Assembly (NCBI GenBank): GCA_003139355.1
Contig: PLIM01000087.1
Span: forward strand, 6,573-58,667
Reading direction: 5' to 3'
DNA from: Acidimicrobiaceae bacterium
Lineage (GTDB): Bacteria > Actinomycetota > Acidimicrobiia > Acidimicrobiales > Bog-793
DNA: 52,095 nt
The translations under genes and the position numbers were made by a program. Shown one piece after another: positions 2,450 through 50,132 of the stretch. The notes under the pieces were generated by a model that was given only the letters and a program-made list of their open reading frames with translations, had not been told where the DNA came from and made no database searches. The stretch's first letter is position 1. Every line of letters starts with the position of its first letter.

Positions 2450-3348
2450 CTCTGGACAGCCACACCTCAGCAGGGATCGCAATCGCGGCGATGTCGGCGC
2501 TGTTCACAGGCTCCGGCACGGTCGTGGAGAAGGTCGCTCTCCAACGGCTGCCCGACATTCACGCGCGGCACTTGTGGGTGATGATCCGCACCTTGTGCGC
2601 TTCGCCGCAGTGGCTCTGGGGTTGCTGCTTGCTGCTGGGGGGTCTCGTGTGCCAGGGCCTGGCTTTGTCCCTGGCACCGATCTCGGTGGCTCAGCCGATC
2701 TTCGCTTCTGGGATCGTCCTTCTGCTCGTGCTCTCACATTTCGTGCTGCACGATCGTCTTCGGCGCGTGGAGTGGTTGGCCCTGGCGACCATCGTTGTCG
2801 CCTTGGTCTTGCTCGGTTTGTCGATCGACACGCGTGTGGATCACGCAGGTGGCCCTGCGAGCCTGCTGTACCTCTTGCTTGCCGCGATCCCAACCTCTGC
2901 GGTCGGTCTCGCCCTTTTTGTGGTAGCGGACCGGGCCCACCGGTCGCGGCGCCGGATCAGGCACTTGCGAGCCCCACTGTTCGGCGTGGCCGCAGGTCTC
3001 CTCTACGGCGTGGCCGGACTCGGCCTGAAGGCGGCGGCGACCTTCGTCCAACGCTGGGGGCTCATCGGCTCGATCCCTCACCTGGTGACTTCCCCTGACC
3101 TCTACCTGCTCGCCGTCGCCATGGCGACCGGCCTCGTGCTGTTCCAAACGGGTCTGCAACGTTGCTCGGCGTCGGTCGTGTCACCGGTGAACATAGTGAC
3201 TTCCACCTCTTACGTCATCGCCGTCGGGACCCTGCTGTTCAACGAGCACCTACCCACCTCCGCCGGTCCCTTGGGGCTGCGGATAGCGGGCTTCGCCGGC
3301 GTGGTGTTCGGCCTTGTCACCCTTGCGGTTGCGGGCGAGGTCGGCTAG
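2437..3348 (+). CDS. DMT/EamA-type integral membrane transporter
   Basis: 303 aa, about 9-10 hydrophobic segments, internal repeat typical of DMT proteins; overlaps the preceding methyltransferase by 13 bp. Confidence 0.7.
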   Translation: MADVTLDSHTSAGIAIAAMSALFTGSGTVVEKVALQRLPDIHARHLWVMIRTLCASPQWLWGCCLLLGGLVCQGLALSLAPISVAQPIFASGIVLLLVLSHFVLHDRLRRVEWLALATIVVALVLLGLSIDTRVDHAGGPASLLYLLLAAIPTSAVGLALFVVADRAHRSRRRIRHLRAPLFGVAAGLLYGVAGLGLKAAATFVQRWGLIGSIPHLVTSPDLYLLAVAMATGLVLFQTGLQRCSASVVSPVNIVTSTSYVIAVGTLLFNEHLPTSAGPLGLRIAGFAGVVFGLVTLAVAGEVG

Positions 3349-3407
3349 ATCGGCGTCACGGGCGCCGAACACTCGGGTCGAGAGGTCACATCAGACGGTG
3401 GAGTGGC

Positions 3408-3860
3408 TCAGCTCAGGTCCAGCCGGTAGACGTTCGTCTCTCGTTTCACGAAACCAGCCCTCTCGTACAAACGGTTCGCCGCCTCCCTCGACGGTCGCGA
3501 CGTCAAGTTGACGTGGCGGGCACCTAGGTCGCGGGCGAGCCGGACGGCTTCAAAGGCCAATGCAGCGCCGACACCATGACCCCGGGCCGACTCGTCTACG
3601 ACGACGTCTTCGATCACCGCGTGCAGCCCTGTCGGGATTCGGTAGGTGACGAGTGTGATCGTGCCGACGATCGCGTCGCCGCGCGAAGCCAGACGGGCGA
3701 CGAGCAGGGAGCTGCCCGGTGAGGCCACGATCTGCTCGAGGGCAGCGCGATCAGGCGGCACAGCGGTCGAGGACAGTTGCGGCACTAGGCGTGCAATGAC
3801 GTCGACGATCTCGTCGGTCGCCTCCGAGACGCGCTCGACGAGGATGCTATTGGCCTTCAT
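3408..3860 (-). CDS. GNAT family N-acetyltransferase
   Basis: VIEDVVVDESARGHGVGAALAFEAVRLARDLGARHVNLTSRPSREAANRLYERAGFVKRETNVYRLDL. Confidence 0.9.
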   Translation of the reverse strand: MKANSILVERVSEATDEIVDVIARLVPQLSSTAVPPDRAALEQIVASPGSSLLVARLASRGDAIVGTITLVTYRIPTGLHAVIEDVVVDESARGHGVGAALAFEAVRLARDLGARHVNLTSRPSREAANRLYERAGFVKRETNVYRLDLS

Positions 3861-4734
3861 GCGGGCGAGTGTATCGAGGGGCCTTCTCCTGCTCGAAGCT
3901 CAAGCTCGAGCCAGCCGGGATTGCCTCTGGGGCCTCTCGCCGCCAAATTGGCCGGCGGGGCCAGTCGAAGAGAACCTCGGCCGAGTCGCCTCGTATCGCG
4001 GCGAACGCGTGAGCGCTCCACACACCGGCATTGGCCAGCGGGGCAGGTAGCGAGTCCTCGCCGAACCACCCGACGTCGGCACACTCGAGCGGGTGGGCCC
4101 TCAGCGTGCCGCCCACGGTCCGAAGGTGGAACACGAGCGAGTAGAGCGGCACTTGTGTGAAGCCGAGCCGGAGTCCGTCGAGGACCATGACCAGGCGAAC
4201 AGGCTCGACGTCGATGCCCGTCTCCTCGAGAACTTCCTTCACTGCGACCTCGGCCGCCGAGTAGCCCACGTCGGCCCAGCCGGTCGGGTAGAGCCAGGCT
4301 CCCGAATCCGCCCGCTGCACGAGCAGGATCTGACCCTCGTCGTTGCCGACGATTGCCCCGATCGCAACCTTCGGTGTCACGTATCCAGCGGTGCCTTGGC
4401 GCACGTCCCCCATCCACTCGAGGACGAGGTCGTTCGCGGCGCTCGTTGCCACCGGTTGGCCGTCGCGTGCGAGCGCCGAGGCAGCGGCCGCGCGGATATC
4501 TCCGGCGACGCTCAGGATCTCCTCGTAGCGCTCCTGTTCGTAGAGGTTCTTGGTGAACGCGAGACCTGTCCTCGCAATGGCGGCAAGCGTTTCTCCCCAC
4601 CGAACAAGATCTCGCGTCGACGCCGGCACCTCACCCACGCGTCCGACCCTAATGCTGGGCACCCGGGTCGGGCGCACCGCGACCTTCGGTGCGCGATCAT
4701 GGCCGACGTGAGCGTCAAGCAGGACTGCCGGCAC
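3847..4734 (-). CDS. NUDIX hydrolase with N-terminal helical NUDIX-associated domain
   Basis: NUDIX-box-like GWADVGYSAAEVAVKEVLEETGIDV preceded by LAAIARTGLAFTKNLYEQERYEEILSVAGDI; the true start is probably inside the ORF. Confidence 0.85.
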   Translation of the reverse strand: MPAVLLDAHVGHDRAPKVAVRPTRVPSIRVGRVGEVPASTRDLVRWGETLAAIARTGLAFTKNLYEQERYEEILSVAGDIRAAAASALARDGQPVATSAANDLVLEWMGDVRQGTAGYVTPKVAIGAIVGNDEGQILLVQRADSGAWLYPTGWADVGYSAAEVAVKEVLEETGIDVEPVRLVMVLDGLRLGFTQVPLYSLVFHLRTVGGTLRAHPLECADVGWFGEDSLPAPLANAGVWSAHAFAAIRGDSAEVLFDWPRRPIWRREAPEAIPAGSSLSFEQEKAPRYTRPHEGQ

Positions 4735-41825: not shown

Positions 41826-42242
41826 ATGGAGCGACTCGCAGCGGTACTGGGACAGCTTGACCTGCCGGAGATCTCGAGGATGCTCCGGCGGACGGTGTTC
41901 ACCGCCCTCGGCGTCGGCGTCGTCGCGCTCGTCGTGCTGTCGACCGTCGGCTACCCGCTTGCCGGGCTGGGTGCCTTAATCGGCCTCGGCCTTGGACTGG
42001 TGAACATCCGCCTCGTGATGTCGACGGCCTCGCGGCTGAATGCTTCGGGGACGACCAAGATCAAGCGCCCGATGGCGATGAGCACCTTGACGCGTCTCGC
42101 TCTCACGACCGTGGTCGCGATCGTCCTGGTCGTGGTGAACCTGCCACTCGGCATGGGCGTGCTCGGGGGCGTCGCGGTGTTCTACCTCCTCTTCGTCGTG
42201 AGCCTGGTGGTCACTCTGCTTCGCCAGGGGGCGGTCACATGA
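41826..42242 (+). CDS. ATP synthase subunit I-like membrane protein
   Basis: Four hydrophobic helices, position directly before atpB, 4-bp overlap with atpB; ATG 41826. Confidence 0.7.
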   Translation: MERLAAVLGQLDLPEISRMLRRTVFTALGVGVVALVVLSTVGYPLAGLGALIGLGLGLVNIRLVMSTASRLNASGTTKIKRPMAMSTLTRLALTTVVAIVLVVVNLPLGMGVLGGVAVFYLLFVVSLVVTLLRQGAVT

Positions 42243-42970
42243 CCGGTAACTGGCTGCTGGCCGGCGCGGGTTCCATCACGGTCGGCAACTCCCCCACGAT
42301 CAAGTTGTTCGGCCTGACGGTCAACAAGTACGACGTCATCTCCTCCCTCGTCGCGGGAGTGCTCGTCATCGGGATCGGGCTCGCCGTGAGGGTGCACATC
42401 ACCGCCGGTGTGCCCGGCAAGCTGCAGCTCGCCTTCGAGACCCTCTCGAATGCCGTCTCGGGTCAGGTCGAGTCGTCCATCGGCTCCAAGGGGCGGCGGA
42501 TCGTGCCGCTCGCGATGACGTTGTTTCTTTACATACTGTTCTGCAACTGGCTCGAGATGATCCCCACGGGTCACACCCCGCAGTTCCTGCCGTCCCCGAC
42601 CGGCGACGTGAACATGACCTACGCGATGGCGCTCACCGTGATCATCCTCGTGCATGCGACCTGGATCCGGACCCAGGGTCTGGGTCACTATCTCGGCCAC
42701 TACTTCCGGCCCTACAAGGTGCTTTTCCCGATTAACTTGATCGAAGAGATCGCGAAGCCGCTCACCCTGGCGCTTCGACTCTTCGGCAACATCTTCTCAG
42801 GCGGGATCATGCTGCTGTTGATCTGGGCGCTCCTCCCCTGGTTCGTAATCCCGATTGGGGACTTGGGTTGGAAGATCTTCGACGGCCTTTTCGTCGCGCC
42901 GATACAGGCGTTCATTTTCTCGTTGCTCACGATCCTTTACTTCCAGGCTGCGATGTCAGGCGAACATTGA
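42239..42970 (+). CDS. atpB: F0F1 ATP synthase subunit a
   Basis: NLIEEIAKPLTLALRLFGNIFSGGIMLLLIWALLPWFVIP (conserved Arg helix), FIFSLLTILYFQAAMSGEH. Confidence 0.96.
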   Translation: MTGNWLLAGAGSITVGNSPTIKLFGLTVNKYDVISSLVAGVLVIGIGLAVRVHITAGVPGKLQLAFETLSNAVSGQVESSIGSKGRRIVPLAMTLFLYILFCNWLEMIPTGHTPQFLPSPTGDVNMTYAMALTVIILVHATWIRTQGLGHYLGHYFRPYKVLFPINLIEEIAKPLTLALRLFGNIFSGGIMLLLIWALLPWFVIPIGDLGWKIFDGLFVAPIQAFIFSLLTILYFQAAMSGEH

Positions 42971-43061: not shown

Positions 43062-43322
43062 ATGGCAAATGACCTCAACCAGGCGATCGAGCTTGCCGGC
43101 GCAATGGTCGGCGGCGGACTCGCCCTCGGCGGCGGCGCTATCGGCGCAGCCATCGGTGACGGCCTGGCAGGCAGCCAGACGATCGCCGGCGTCGCCCGCC
43201 AACCCGAGGCGCAAGGCCGGCTGTTCACGATCATGTTCATCATCGTGGGTCTCGTCGAGGCCATGTACTTCATCAACCTCGTCTTCATGGTCCTGTTCGT
43301 CTTCGTCCTCGCCAAGAAGTAG
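43062..43322 (+). CDS. atpE: F0F1 ATP synthase subunit c
   Basis: [65 protein letters not shown]. Confidence 0.97.
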
Positions 43323-43340: not shown

Positions 43341-43886
43341 ATGCTGTTTGCAAGCGCCGCGACCGGCAACTCCGGCAACGGCGGCAACTTCCTGATCCCG
43401 AACGGCACGTTCGTTGTCGAGTTGGTGATCTTCCTGGTCGTGCTCGGGATCATCGCGAAATGGATCCTGCCGCCGCTGCAGAAGGTGGCCGAGACGAGGC
43501 GGGTACGTATCAGCACTGCGTTGCAGAATGCGGAGGCGACACGCGCCGAGAGCCAGAGCCTGCTCGCCGAGCGCGACCGGGTGCTGATCGAGGCGCGTGC
43601 CGAGGCCCGTGTCATCATCGACCACGCCAATCAAGGCGCTGACCTGGCACTCGAACACGGGCGCCAGAGGGGTCAGGAGGAATACGAACGGTTGGTCGGA
43701 GCCTCCCGGGATGAGATCGCAGATGAGGGCCGCCGAGCCCGGGAGGAGCTCGTCGGGCGTCTCGACACACTCGTGGTGGCCGCGGCCGAGCGCGTGCTCG
43801 GCAGCCGCGTCGATCCTGACCGGCACCGCGCGCTGATCGACGAGGCGATCGCCACGGCGACGGCCACGAGCGCGGGAGGGGACTAG
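43341..43886 (+). CDS. atpF: F0F1 ATP synthase subunit b
   Basis: NFLIPNGTFVVELVIFLVVLGIIAKWILPPLQKVAETRRVRISTALQNAEATRAESQSLLAERDRVLIEARAEARVIIDHA. Confidence 0.93.
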   Translation: MLFASAATGNSGNGGNFLIPNGTFVVELVIFLVVLGIIAKWILPPLQKVAETRRVRISTALQNAEATRAESQSLLAERDRVLIEARAEARVIIDHANQGADLALEHGRQRGQEEYERLVGASRDEIADEGRRAREELVGRLDTLVVAAAERVLGSRVDPDRHRALIDEAIATATATSAGGD

Positions 43887-43888
43887 GC

Positions 43889-44368
43889 GTGGCAGCGTAT
43901 CTGGCCGAGGTCTTCGGTTTCCTGCTGTTGGGCGTCTTCGTCTACCGCTTCCGCTATGCGTGGCCCTGGCTCAGGCAGCAGATGAACAAGCAGGCAGATT
44001 CGATCCGGTCATCACTCTCCTCTGCCGACGCTGCATTCGAGAGTGGCCAGCGTATGCTCGCCGAGGCACGTGCGGCCCTGGAGGCGGCGCATTCGGACGC
44101 GACGGCCATAATCGAACGGGCGCACGAGACCTCCGCCCAGCTCCTCCTCGATGGGGAGCACCGCGGCCGGGAGCAGTACGACAGGCTCGTCACGAGCGCC
44201 GCAGCCGAGGGCGACTTCGAGCGCCACCGCGCCCAAGAGGAAGTCACGCGGCAGGTTGGCGCCATCGTGATGGCCGCGACCGAGGTCGTCGTGGCCGCCG
44301 AGATCGACGCGTCGCTCCAGCGGGCGTTCATCGGTGAGACGATCGATGCCGCCGAGGCGATGGCATGA
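43889..44368 (+). CDS. Second b-type (b'-like) ATP synthase stalk subunit
   Basis: N-terminal TM AAYLAEVFGFLLLGVFVYRFRYAWPWLRQQMNKQADSIRSSLSSADAAFESGQRMLAEARAALEAAHSDATAIIERAHE, then long helix; located between atpF and atpH. Confidence 0.85.
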   Translation: MAAYLAEVFGFLLLGVFVYRFRYAWPWLRQQMNKQADSIRSSLSSADAAFESGQRMLAEARAALEAAHSDATAIIERAHETSAQLLLDGEHRGREQYDRLVTSAAAEGDFERHRAQEEVTRQVGAIVMAATEVVVAAEIDASLQRAFIGETIDAAEAMA

Positions 44369-45315
44369 GGGACCTGCTGCGCGGTTACGCGACCGCGATC
44401 TTCGAATCGGCGGCGACGGTAGGGCACGCGCGCCGGGTCGCGAGCGATCTGGGTGTGTTCTCGCGGGCCCTTCACGAGTCTGACCCGCTCCGTAACGTGC
44501 TCACCGATGTGGCCATCGCGCCCCGGGCACGTCGCGGTGTCGTGCACGATCTATTGGAGGGAAAGGCTGCCGCCGAGTCTCAGGCGCTCGCTTCCTGGGC
44601 AGCACTGGTCGAGCCTGCCGCCGAGCTCCCAGTTGCCGTGCTTGCGCTGGTCGAGCTCGCTCTCGAGACCGCCGATGCGTCCGAAGCAGGCCAGGTCCGG
44701 CCCATCTCAGCCGAGGAGCTCCTTGGCGGCCGCACAGCAGTGCGCGAGCGGATCCGCGGCTACGCCGACCGACTGTTCCAGGAGGTCGACGGGCTGGAGC
44801 GTATCGACGACATCGAGGACGAATTGGTCCGTTTTGCGAGGACCGTCGACTCGAACCGTACCCTGCGCCGGGCGCTCGGCAACCCGTCAACTGCGGTCGC
44901 GCAACGGGTCGCTCTGGTCGAGGACCTGCTTCGAGGCAAGGTGCTTCCTGCGACTGCACGGCTCGTCGCCTACGTGCTGAAGGCCGGCCACATCCGGGAT
45001 CTCGTCGGCACGCTCGAGTGGGTCGCAGGGCTCGCTGCCGAGGAGCGAGGGCGGCGCGTCGCCGAGGTGCGCTCGGCCGTCGAGCTCGACGATGCCGAAT
45101 ACCTACGGCTCGTCGAGGCGCTCGAGCGTACGGCCGGTCATCCGGTCGAAGTCCGCGTGCAGATCGAACCCTCGCTGTTGGGCGGGATGGCCGTCGCGAT
45201 CGGGGATACCGTCATCGACGGCTCCGTGCGACACCGTCTCGACCGACTCCGCGAAACCCTGGCCCCGTCGACGGCTTTGCGAGACATGTCGACTCTTGAG
45301 CATGACCGTTCCTGA
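44365..45315 (+). CDS. atpH: F0F1 ATP synthase subunit delta with duplicated N-terminal domain
   Basis: 316 aa, about 1.7x normal delta; RGYATAIFESA…DLLEGK repeated as RGYADRLFQEV…DLLRGK; C-terminal VEVRVQIEPSLLGGMAVAIGDTVIDGSVRHRLDRLRETL. ATGA overlap with b'. Confidence 0.93.
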   Translation: MRDLLRGYATAIFESAATVGHARRVASDLGVFSRALHESDPLRNVLTDVAIAPRARRGVVHDLLEGKAAAESQALASWAALVEPAAELPVAVLALVELALETADASEAGQVRPISAEELLGGRTAVRERIRGYADRLFQEVDGLERIDDIEDELVRFARTVDSNRTLRRALGNPSTAVAQRVALVEDLLRGKVLPATARLVAYVLKAGHIRDLVGTLEWVAGLAAEERGRRVAEVRSAVELDDAEYLRLVEALERTAGHPVEVRVQIEPSLLGGMAVAIGDTVIDGSVRHRLDRLRETLAPSTALRDMSTLEHDRS

Positions 45316-45347: not shown

Positions 45348-47069
45348 ATGCCTGAGCTCACGATCAACGCCGACGACATCGCCGCGGCACTGGCGCGTAA
45401 TGTGAGCGAGTTCACGGCCGAGACGGAGGCCGAGCAGGTTGGCCGCATTGCCGAGGTCGGCGACGGCATCGCACGGGTCACCGGCTTGCCTGGGGCCACC
45501 GTCAACGAACTGCTCGAGTTCGAAAATGGAACGGTCGGACTCGCCCTCAACCTTGACGAGGAATCGATCGGCGCGGTCGTGCTCGGCACGATGGACGGCC
45601 TCGACGAGGGGCAGGTGGTTCGCTCGACGGGCAGGATCTTGTCGGTGCCGGTGGGCGACGCCCTACTGGGCCGCGTCGTGAACCCCCTCGGTGAGCCAAT
45701 TGACGGGAAGGGCCCGCTCGGAGCCACCGTCGATCGCCGTCTCGAGATCCAGGCGCCGGGCATCGTGTCGCGCCAGCCGGTCTTCGAACCGTTGCAGACC
45801 GGCATCAAGGTCATCGACGCGATGACACCTATCGGTCGTGGCCAGCGCGAGCTCATCATCGGCGACCGCAAGACCGGCAAGACGACGATCGCTACCGACA
45901 CGATCATCAATCAGCGCGGCGCCGGGGTGAAGTGCATCTACGTCGCGATCGGCCAGAAGGGATCGACCATCTCCCAGACGGTCGCGACCTTCGCCGAGCA
46001 CGGCGCCCTCGCATACACCGTCGTCGTCGCGGCACCGGCTTCCGAGCCCGCACCTTTCAAGTACCTCGCCCCGTATGCGGGTTGCGCGATGGGCCAGCAC
46101 TGGATGGAGAACGGCGAGCACGCGCTCGTCGTCTACGACGACCTCTCCAAGCAGGCCGAGGCTTACCGCCAGATCTCCCTCCTTCTTCGCCGTCCCCCAG
46201 GCCGAGAGGCCTACCCCGGTGATGTCTTCTACCTCCACAGCCGTCTGCTCGAGCGGGCGGCAAAGCTCTCCGACAAGATGGGCGGCGGGTCGCTCACGGC
46301 TCTGCCGATCATCGAGACCAAGGCAGGTGACATCTCCGCCTATATCCCCACCAACGTCATCTCGATCACCGACGGCCAGATCTTCCTCGAGAGCGAGCTC
46401 TTCTATTCGGGTGTGCGCCCGGCGTTCAACGTCGGGAACTCGGTGTCACGAGTCGGGGGCGCGGCCCAGATCAAGGCGATGAAGTCGGTAGTCGGCACGC
46501 TCAAGATAGACCTGGCGCAGTTTCGTGAGCTCGAGGCGTTCGCCACGTTCGGCTCCGAGCTCGACAAGGCGTCGCAGGCACAGCTGGACCGCGGCTATCG
46601 CCTCACGGAGCTGCTGAAGCAGGGCCTGAACGTCCCCTTGCCGGTGCAGGAGCAGGTTGTCGTCATCTACGCGGGTGTGCGCGGGCACATCGACGACGTA
46701 CCCGTGGAAGAAGTGCAGCGCTTCGAGTCCGAGTTGCGGACGTTCATGCGGGCTCGCCACGCCGACATTCTCGAGAAGATCGTCTCAACGGGAGCCCTTT
46801 CGAACGAGAGCGCGCTCGAAGCCGCGATCGTGGAGTTCAAGCGAGGTTTCGGCTCCTCGGATGGGCCACCGGCCGAGGCTGCTGGTGCCGCCGGGGCAAC
46901 CGAGGAGGCCGGGGAGGCCGGGGCTGCCGGCGTAACCGAGGCTGCTGGTGCCGCCGGCACCGCTAGCTCAACCGAGGCTGCCGGCGCAACCGAGGCTGCT
47001 GGTGCCGCCGGCTCCGCTGGCTCAACCGAGGCGAGCGCCTCGGCTGTGGGCGAGAACGAGGCCGAGTAG
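45348..47069 (+). CDS. atpA: F0F1 ATP synthase subunit alpha with low-complexity C-terminal extension
   Basis: [20 protein letters not shown] (P-loop), [26 protein letters not shown]; ends in an Ala/Gly/Glu/Thr-rich tail of about 70 aa. Confidence 0.97.
46875..47011 (+). repeat. Three in-frame copies of GAGGCTGCTGGTGCCGCCGG in the atpA C-terminal extension
   Basis: Exact 20-bp copies at 46875-46894, 46938-46957 and 46992-47011 (start spacings 63 and 54 bp, both multiples of 3), encoding EAAGAAG. Confidence 0.9.
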
Positions 47070-49568: not shown

Positions 49569-50132
49569 ATGGCAAACCTGACCCACGCCGAGCTCATCAC
49601 GCCCGAACGCGTCCTGTTCTCGGGCGAAGCCGAAGCAGTCGTGTTGCGTTGCGACGGAGGCGATACGACCTTCCTGGCGAACCACATGGACTACGTCGGT
49701 GCCGTCGACATCTGCGTCGTGCGGATCGAGGGCGTACAACGTACCGGGGCGTCAGATGGGGGCACCGGAGCCGGCGGCGCGGCCACCCCGGGCGGCGGCG
49801 CGGCCACCCCGGGCGAGTCGACCTCGCTTGGTGAGGTGCGCGCCGCGGTGCACGGTGGCTTCGTCAAGGTGGCCGACAACAAGGTGACGATCGTCGCGGG
49901 AACCGCCGAGCTCGCCGAAGAGATCGATGTCGCGCGGGCGCAGCGCGCGCTCGAAGCGGCCGAGGCGACGCTCGAGGCCGGATCGAAGGCCGGCACGGCC
50001 GGCAGAGGGCTCGAGACGGCCGAAGGCCGGCCTTCTGGTGGCGATGTGGCTGAAGCTGATGCTGCGGCGGCCCGGGCCCGGGTGCGGCTGGAGGCGGCTG
50101 TCAAGCTCAAGGCGGACCTGAGCCGCATGTGA
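49569..50132 (+). CDS. atpC: F0F1 ATP synthase subunit epsilon with two low-complexity insertions
   Basis: LTHAELITPERVLFSGEAEAVVLRCDGGDTTFLANHMDYVGAVDICVVRIEG…AAVHGGFVKVADNKVTIVAGTAELAEEIDVARAQRALEAAEATLE; position after atpD. Confidence 0.92.
   Translation: MANLTHAELITPERVLFSGEAEAVVLRCDGGDTTFLANHMDYVGAVDICVVRIEGVQRTGASDGGTGAGGAATPGGGAATPGESTSLGEVRAAVHGGFVKVADNKVTIVAGTAELAEEIDVARAQRALEAAEATLEAGSKAGTAGRGLETAEGRPSGGDVAEADAAAARARVRLEAAVKLKADLSRM
49773..49814 (+). repeat. Perfect 2 x 21-bp tandem repeat inside atpC
   Basis: GGCGGCGCGGCCACCCCGGGC repeated twice in tandem, encoding GGAATPG-GGAATPG. Confidence 0.93.

Follow-up and report, generated by a model that had tools for sequence, protein, structure and literature searches.

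The ATP synthase operon in the window (the whole stretch of 52,095 nucleotides analysed here, from an Acidimicrobiaceae soil bacterium) includes a gene for an additional b-type subunit, b′, and one for a delta subunit whose N-terminal domain is duplicated. We assign a probability of roughly 0.78 to the reading that a tandem copy of b became b′ beside a two-headed delta and that b and b′ form a heterodimeric stalk. Judged by its phylogenetic placement and its distribution, b′ is most likely the product of an independent tandem duplication, rather than the arrangement that preceded the fused b-delta protein of mycobacteria or a later split of that protein. The preliminary description had suggested one or the other of these two histories and neither is borne out, while the architectural parallel that it drew with b-delta (b, b′, duplicated delta N-domain, delta) stands.

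Gene order and the two-domain delta subunit

The operon runs in the order a (42239-42970), c (43062-43322), b, b′, delta and alpha, followed by gamma, beta and epsilon, with the genes from b to alpha on the forward strand. The first b copy (atpF, 43341-43886) encodes 181 aa and matches PF00430 with an E-value of 2.4e-23. The second, b′ (43889-44368), starts with GTG and encodes 159 aa with an N-terminal transmembrane helix and a long helix, scoring 52.8 bits (5.6e-14) against the same Pfam model (ATP-synt_B), above its cut-off of 28. Its stop codon and the start codon of the delta gene (atpH, 44365-45315, 316 aa) overlap as ATGA at 44365-44368, and the open reading frame of alpha (atpA, 45348-47069), the presumed partner of both delta heads via its N-terminal helices, follows. 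These positions, the second b-like subunit, the length of delta and the overlap were all found as previously described.

The alpha protein ends in a low-complexity tail of roughly 70-75 aa rich in Ala, Gly and Glu, gamma (from about 47074) has an insertion rich in P, E and G ahead of its last helices, and epsilon (49569-50132) has G/A-rich insertions; relatives carry variable versions of the alpha tail and of the gamma and epsilon insertions. Mycobacterial alpha and gamma also have extensions, which are used in autoinhibition (PMC8617483).

Profile searches and the predicted fold confirm what had been proposed from the letters alone: delta begins with a true duplicate of its N-terminal domain, spanning the first ~110 residues. 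Delta matches the OSCP family (PF00213, 2.2e-42) in two stretches, one at residues 132-299 and the other recovered with the first 125 residues on their own (1.7e-6), and the scores of 121 bits for the second N-terminal domain with the C-terminal domain and of 28.7 bits for the first N-terminal domain alone both lie above the cut-off of 22.3. For the full protein (27 sequences in the alignment; pLDDT 88.7, pTM 0.81) AlphaFold predicts six helices in residues 3-107 (the extra domain N1, 44371-44685), six matching helices in residues 123-230 (the canonical domain N2, 44731-45054) and an alpha/beta C-terminal domain in residues 232-314 (45058-45306), the latter two also being covered by OSCP. The two N-terminal domains of the window protein, N1 and N2, share 27% identity and align with a score of 74.5, as compared to a mean of -2.1 (s.d. 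10.1, maximum 39) in 2000 shuffles, and N1 is kept in relatives.

Folded on its own, N1 reaches a pLDDT of 93.6. Its top 36 Foldseek matches in the PDB are all delta/OSCP, led by mycobacterial b-delta chains (TMq 0.65-0.70, with 0.67-0.70 for M. smegmatis; rmsd mostly 1.5-2.5 A) and including the N-terminal domain of E. coli delta (1abv; TM 0.73 by target, 2.8 A). The E-values are modest (0.04-0.9) for a helical domain of this small size, with match probabilities of 0.8-1.0. The first half of the gene at 44365-45315 therefore aligns structurally with the delta N-terminal domain, in favour of the earlier observation. For the full delta, mycobacterial b-delta is the best relative in the PDB by phmmer (3.3e-22), and b-delta chains also come first in Foldseek, with about 305 columns aligned. 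Overall, TM values are low (0.26-0.35, with an rmsd of 13-17 A), and we read this as a probable difference in inter-domain angle.

Distribution and descent of b′

A contig scan with the delta protein alone gave 4 loci, and the mapping therefore relied on whole-genome searches; operon segments were extracted for 164 loci, and their b copies and delta heads were classed with HMMs built here. Within the window's family, b, b′ and a two-domain delta occur together in 14 of the 17 classifiable loci, from about 10 genera, and a single b is found in L048, L051 and L054 (L050, which runs off a contig edge, is not among the 17). Among 36 acidimicrobial loci with a two-domain delta outside this family, sampled from at least 17 families, none has b′ and all have a single b. 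Sampled operons with a single-domain delta have one b in almost all cases, and the combination of a two-domain delta and one b is also common in actinomycetes, with 13 loci outside the family of Mycobacterium and 9 within it. Two-headed deltas without any b′ or fusion amount to about 60 sampled loci; the extra head is hence no linker created by the fusion, and the duplicated domain drops out of the fusion history in which it had been included. Literature searches on acidimicrobial or actinobacterial two-domain delta gave nothing further.

Two loci from another family of the same order (L070 and L174, G441) have two b-type ORFs 5' of a single-domain delta. They may represent yet another independent duplication of b, and their b1 forms a very long branch. 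In L151 (G149, 3293-4087) an ORF of 265 aa joins b straight to the delta C-terminal domain without a delta N-domain; this other kind of b-delta fusion resembles TIGR03321, with a score that stays under the cut-off of that model.

The ranking of the phmmer matches of b′ in the PDB gave the first hint that it has no special mycobacterial tie: E. coli b leads as its best relative (4.6e-14), and chains of b-delta reach just 6e-4 to 0.15. The model of mycobacterial b-delta (NF009961, equivalog cut-off 328) gives b′ 28.1 bits, and that of cyanobacterial/proteobacterial b′ (NF005607, cut-off 131) gives 18.1 bits. An HMM of acidimicrobial single b scores the b′ of the window's family at a mean of 110 bits, as opposed to 56 for an HMM of mycobacterial b′, and outscores the latter for all 14 proteins. 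In a careful tree of 47 b domains, the b, b1 and b′ of two-domain acidimicrobial operons fall together (branch 100/99), and mycobacterial b′ is nested in the actinomycete b clade (100/99), grouping with b from elsewhere in its own family (98/90). A quick tree of 103 rows keeps the family's b′ in the acidimicrobial clade (96) and lacks resolution for the position of mycobacterial b′ on the actinomycete side. Realignment of the 47 rows with L-INS-i returned an identical tree, likelihood and p, and is thus no independent check. A single origin of b′ lowers the log-likelihood by 28.6 in the 47-row tree (148 columns, AU p = 0.085), and has an AU p of 0.19 in a 96-row b tree. Immediate descent shared with mycobacterial b′ is opposed by the tree and the HMM scores and, at an AU p of 0.085, is disfavoured rather than formally rejected; an independent origin of b′ is accordingly strongly favoured rather than proven.

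The alpha-subunit tree served as reference and stand-in for the species tree. It recovers the window's family as one clade (99), with the three b′-less genomes as sister to all b′-bearing ones (88, quick tree), and this placement puts the gain of b′ within or at the base of the family; a gain at the base followed by one loss is possible at that support.

The same data bear on the idea that b, b′ and a two-domain delta were the ancestral actinobacterial state, from which mycobacterial b-delta would have arisen by fusion while most other lineages lost b′. Genes and domains do come in the same order, and the p-value for a single b′ origin lies above 5%. On both sides, however, b′ groups with the b of its own lineage, and many independent losses would be needed, in 17 or more acidimicrobial families and in most sampled actinomycetes. 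We consider this history unlikely, and a preserved pre-fusion ancestor was rejected on the grounds of tree (100/99), profile scores (110 versus 56) and distribution (0 of 36 outside the family).

The proposed peripheral stalk

We propose that the products of this locus make up the peripheral stalk of an F1Fo ATP synthase. In an ancestor of most of the window's family, b would have been copied in tandem and the second copy would have diverged into b′, adjoining a delta that already had its repeated N-terminal domain. The product would be an asymmetric b/b′ heterodimer contributing one membrane helix apiece to subunit a, with b and b′ both extending along the side of F1 up to the delta C-terminal domain. 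Each delta head, N1 as well as N2, would hold on to one alpha subunit by its N-terminal helix, in the manner of the linking and delta domains in M. smegmatis, where the linking domain of b-delta is a duplicate of delta and binds the N-terminus of an alpha subunit (PMC8617483). Two polypeptides would in this way do the job of the single fused b-delta of mycobacteria. Computation here established the two genes, the duplicated domain with its predicted fold, selection on both genes, the narrow distribution and the position of b′ within acidimicrobial b, and the proposal builds on these. By analogy with the mycobacterial enzyme, a b/b′ heterodimer with a two-headed delta is likely, N1 would bind alpha, and the arrangement may confer a functional advantage.

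Between the window and a congener (G612, L038), b has a dN/dS of 0.28 and b′ one of 0.18, while delta and its N1 domain both have 0.17; b′ and N1 are each under purifying selection. Close to its transmembrane helix, the window's b′ has a segment (43949-43975) with an in-frame two-residue insertion and local divergence, reading RFRYAWPWLRQQ where the congener has RYVKPPLKKL. A b2 or b′2 homodimer, or a dispensable b′, is possible. That b′ is a redundant or conditionally used copy and the stalk a b2 homodimer without any b/b′ heterodimer would agree with the three genomes of the family that manage without b′; yet 14 of the 17 loci, from about 10 genera, have retained b′, which, diverged as it is from b, is conserved in itself (dN/dS 0.18), so that we hold this version of the stalk to be rather improbable.

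The delta duplication itself may have happened once or twice. Delta N-domain trees place all N1 in one clade (87/88), and a topology in which Acidimicrobiia duplicated the domain on their own does just as well (p-AU 0.59). Acidimicrobial N1 domains have mean scores of 81-94 against acidimicrobial single-domain delta and of 23-41 against actinomycete N1, which is only suggestive of a closer relationship of the acidimicrobial N1 to the single-domain delta of its own lineage, with actinomycete N1 evolving fast.

Fusion, fission and known counterparts

The family of Mycobacterium (G038) contains 16 loci with fused b-delta (including one gene twice, L099 and L141, both G038), 11 with separate b, b′ and delta, and 9 without b′. 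Its genus g65 includes L098, which matches the b-delta of M. smegmatis with 580 bits. Fused and split forms share the same b′ clade (100/100), and those split loci, rather than the window, are therefore the true unfused counterpart of b-delta. The alpha tree does not unite the fused genes in a single clade (AU p = 3e-5, with a log-likelihood lower by 95), so that either fusion or fission took place at least twice or the operon moved between lineages. Within the genus g205, L132 (G290) and L102 (G300) differ in that one has a fused b-delta and the other is without b′, which suggests loss or transfer of an operon segment. A survey of 2017 had reported such a fused protein from Gordonia and from some Mycobacterium, and predicted that two consecutive b genes and delta were its source (PMC5709465), a prediction which the split loci fit. 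The structure paper of 2021 called b-delta unique to mycobacteria (PMC8617483); naming in that paper is reversed as compared to ours, b′ being the separate subunit and b the fused part.

Given that fused and split forms do interchange in this family, the window might be thought to hold a fused b-delta that was inherited or transferred from a mycobacterial relative and later split. Nothing specific points to this, and delta, b and b′ of the window are all acidimicrobial in sequence, b′ scoring and grouping with acidimicrobial b. Among two-domain-delta loci of the sampled order b′ is confined to one family, and a fused b-delta of the mycobacterial kind was not found in any sampled acidimicrobial locus. 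Such a split is accordingly very doubtful.

The frames of b′ and delta differ in all 14 b′-bearing loci of the window's family. In most loci of the family the two genes are co-oriented with a 4-bp overlap or a very short gap, and the ATGA itself is kept in two congeners from separate assemblies (L033, Acidimicrobiaceae MAG, fen_548; and L038). In L144 and L145 (g241 of the same family) b′ is present and delta N1 starts about 120-135 nt past the b′ stop, unlike the tight b′/delta junctions of the other genera; several of their subunits are long branches. A split that recurs throughout the b′-bearing relatives is no artefact of assembly, and to judge from these comparisons a concealed b′-delta fusion ORF in the window is very unlikely. 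The preliminary description had named a sequencing error at the 44365 overlap as a possible mask for a real fusion ORF, and even for a draft genome in 197 contigs this was rejected as next to impossible, given different frames with a stop in 14 of 14 loci and an identical ATGA in two congeners.

ATP synthase is a drug target in tuberculosis. The present analysis pulls apart three things that are joined in mycobacteria, i.e., the duplicated delta head, the second b and the fusion. The duplicated head is widespread, usually without b′, and is neither by-product nor linker of the fusion; the second b, on present evidence, was gained separately in at least two lineages; and the fusion comes and goes inside the family containing Mycobacterium. 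The comparison thereby supplies natural variants for studying each part by itself.

The closest known system is mycobacterial b-delta (AtpFH; NF009961/PRK13428; PDB 7jg5 chain d, 7nkd, 8j0s, 9vkp), which likewise has, between b and alpha and in identical order, a b-type stalk helix, a duplicated delta N-domain and delta. It differs from the window in being one polypeptide, as opposed to two from separate ORFs in different frames, and in that the window's b′ groups with acidimicrobial rather than mycobacterial sequences; the window's delta scores 101.4 bits against NF009961, below the equivalog cut-off of 328. The 11 unfused loci of the Mycobacterium family (e.g., L111, L113, L118 and L123) share with the window three separate genes and a two-domain delta, whereas their b′ belongs to the clade of the b part of fused b-delta (100/100). 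The two-domain actinomycete delta (NF009967/PRK13430, about 271 aa, with a single b; 13 loci) also has the extra N-terminal domain but lacks an accompanying b′. Against NF009967 the window's delta reaches 174.3 bits, below the equivalog cut-off of 200, and its N1 aligns to the N2 region of that model and is not co-linear with the model's N1. Stalks with two different b-type subunits are also known as b/b′ from cyanobacteria, chloroplasts and some other bacteria (PMC8617483, PMC5709465); unlike in the window, delta is single-headed in these stalks, and the window's b′ lies far below the b′ models. We lean somewhat towards the view that Actinomycetota evolved an asymmetric stalk of two different b helices and a two-headed delta on at least two occasions, fused in mycobacteria and separate here, and that the two-headed delta, which would have preceded the second b both times, may favour its recruitment.
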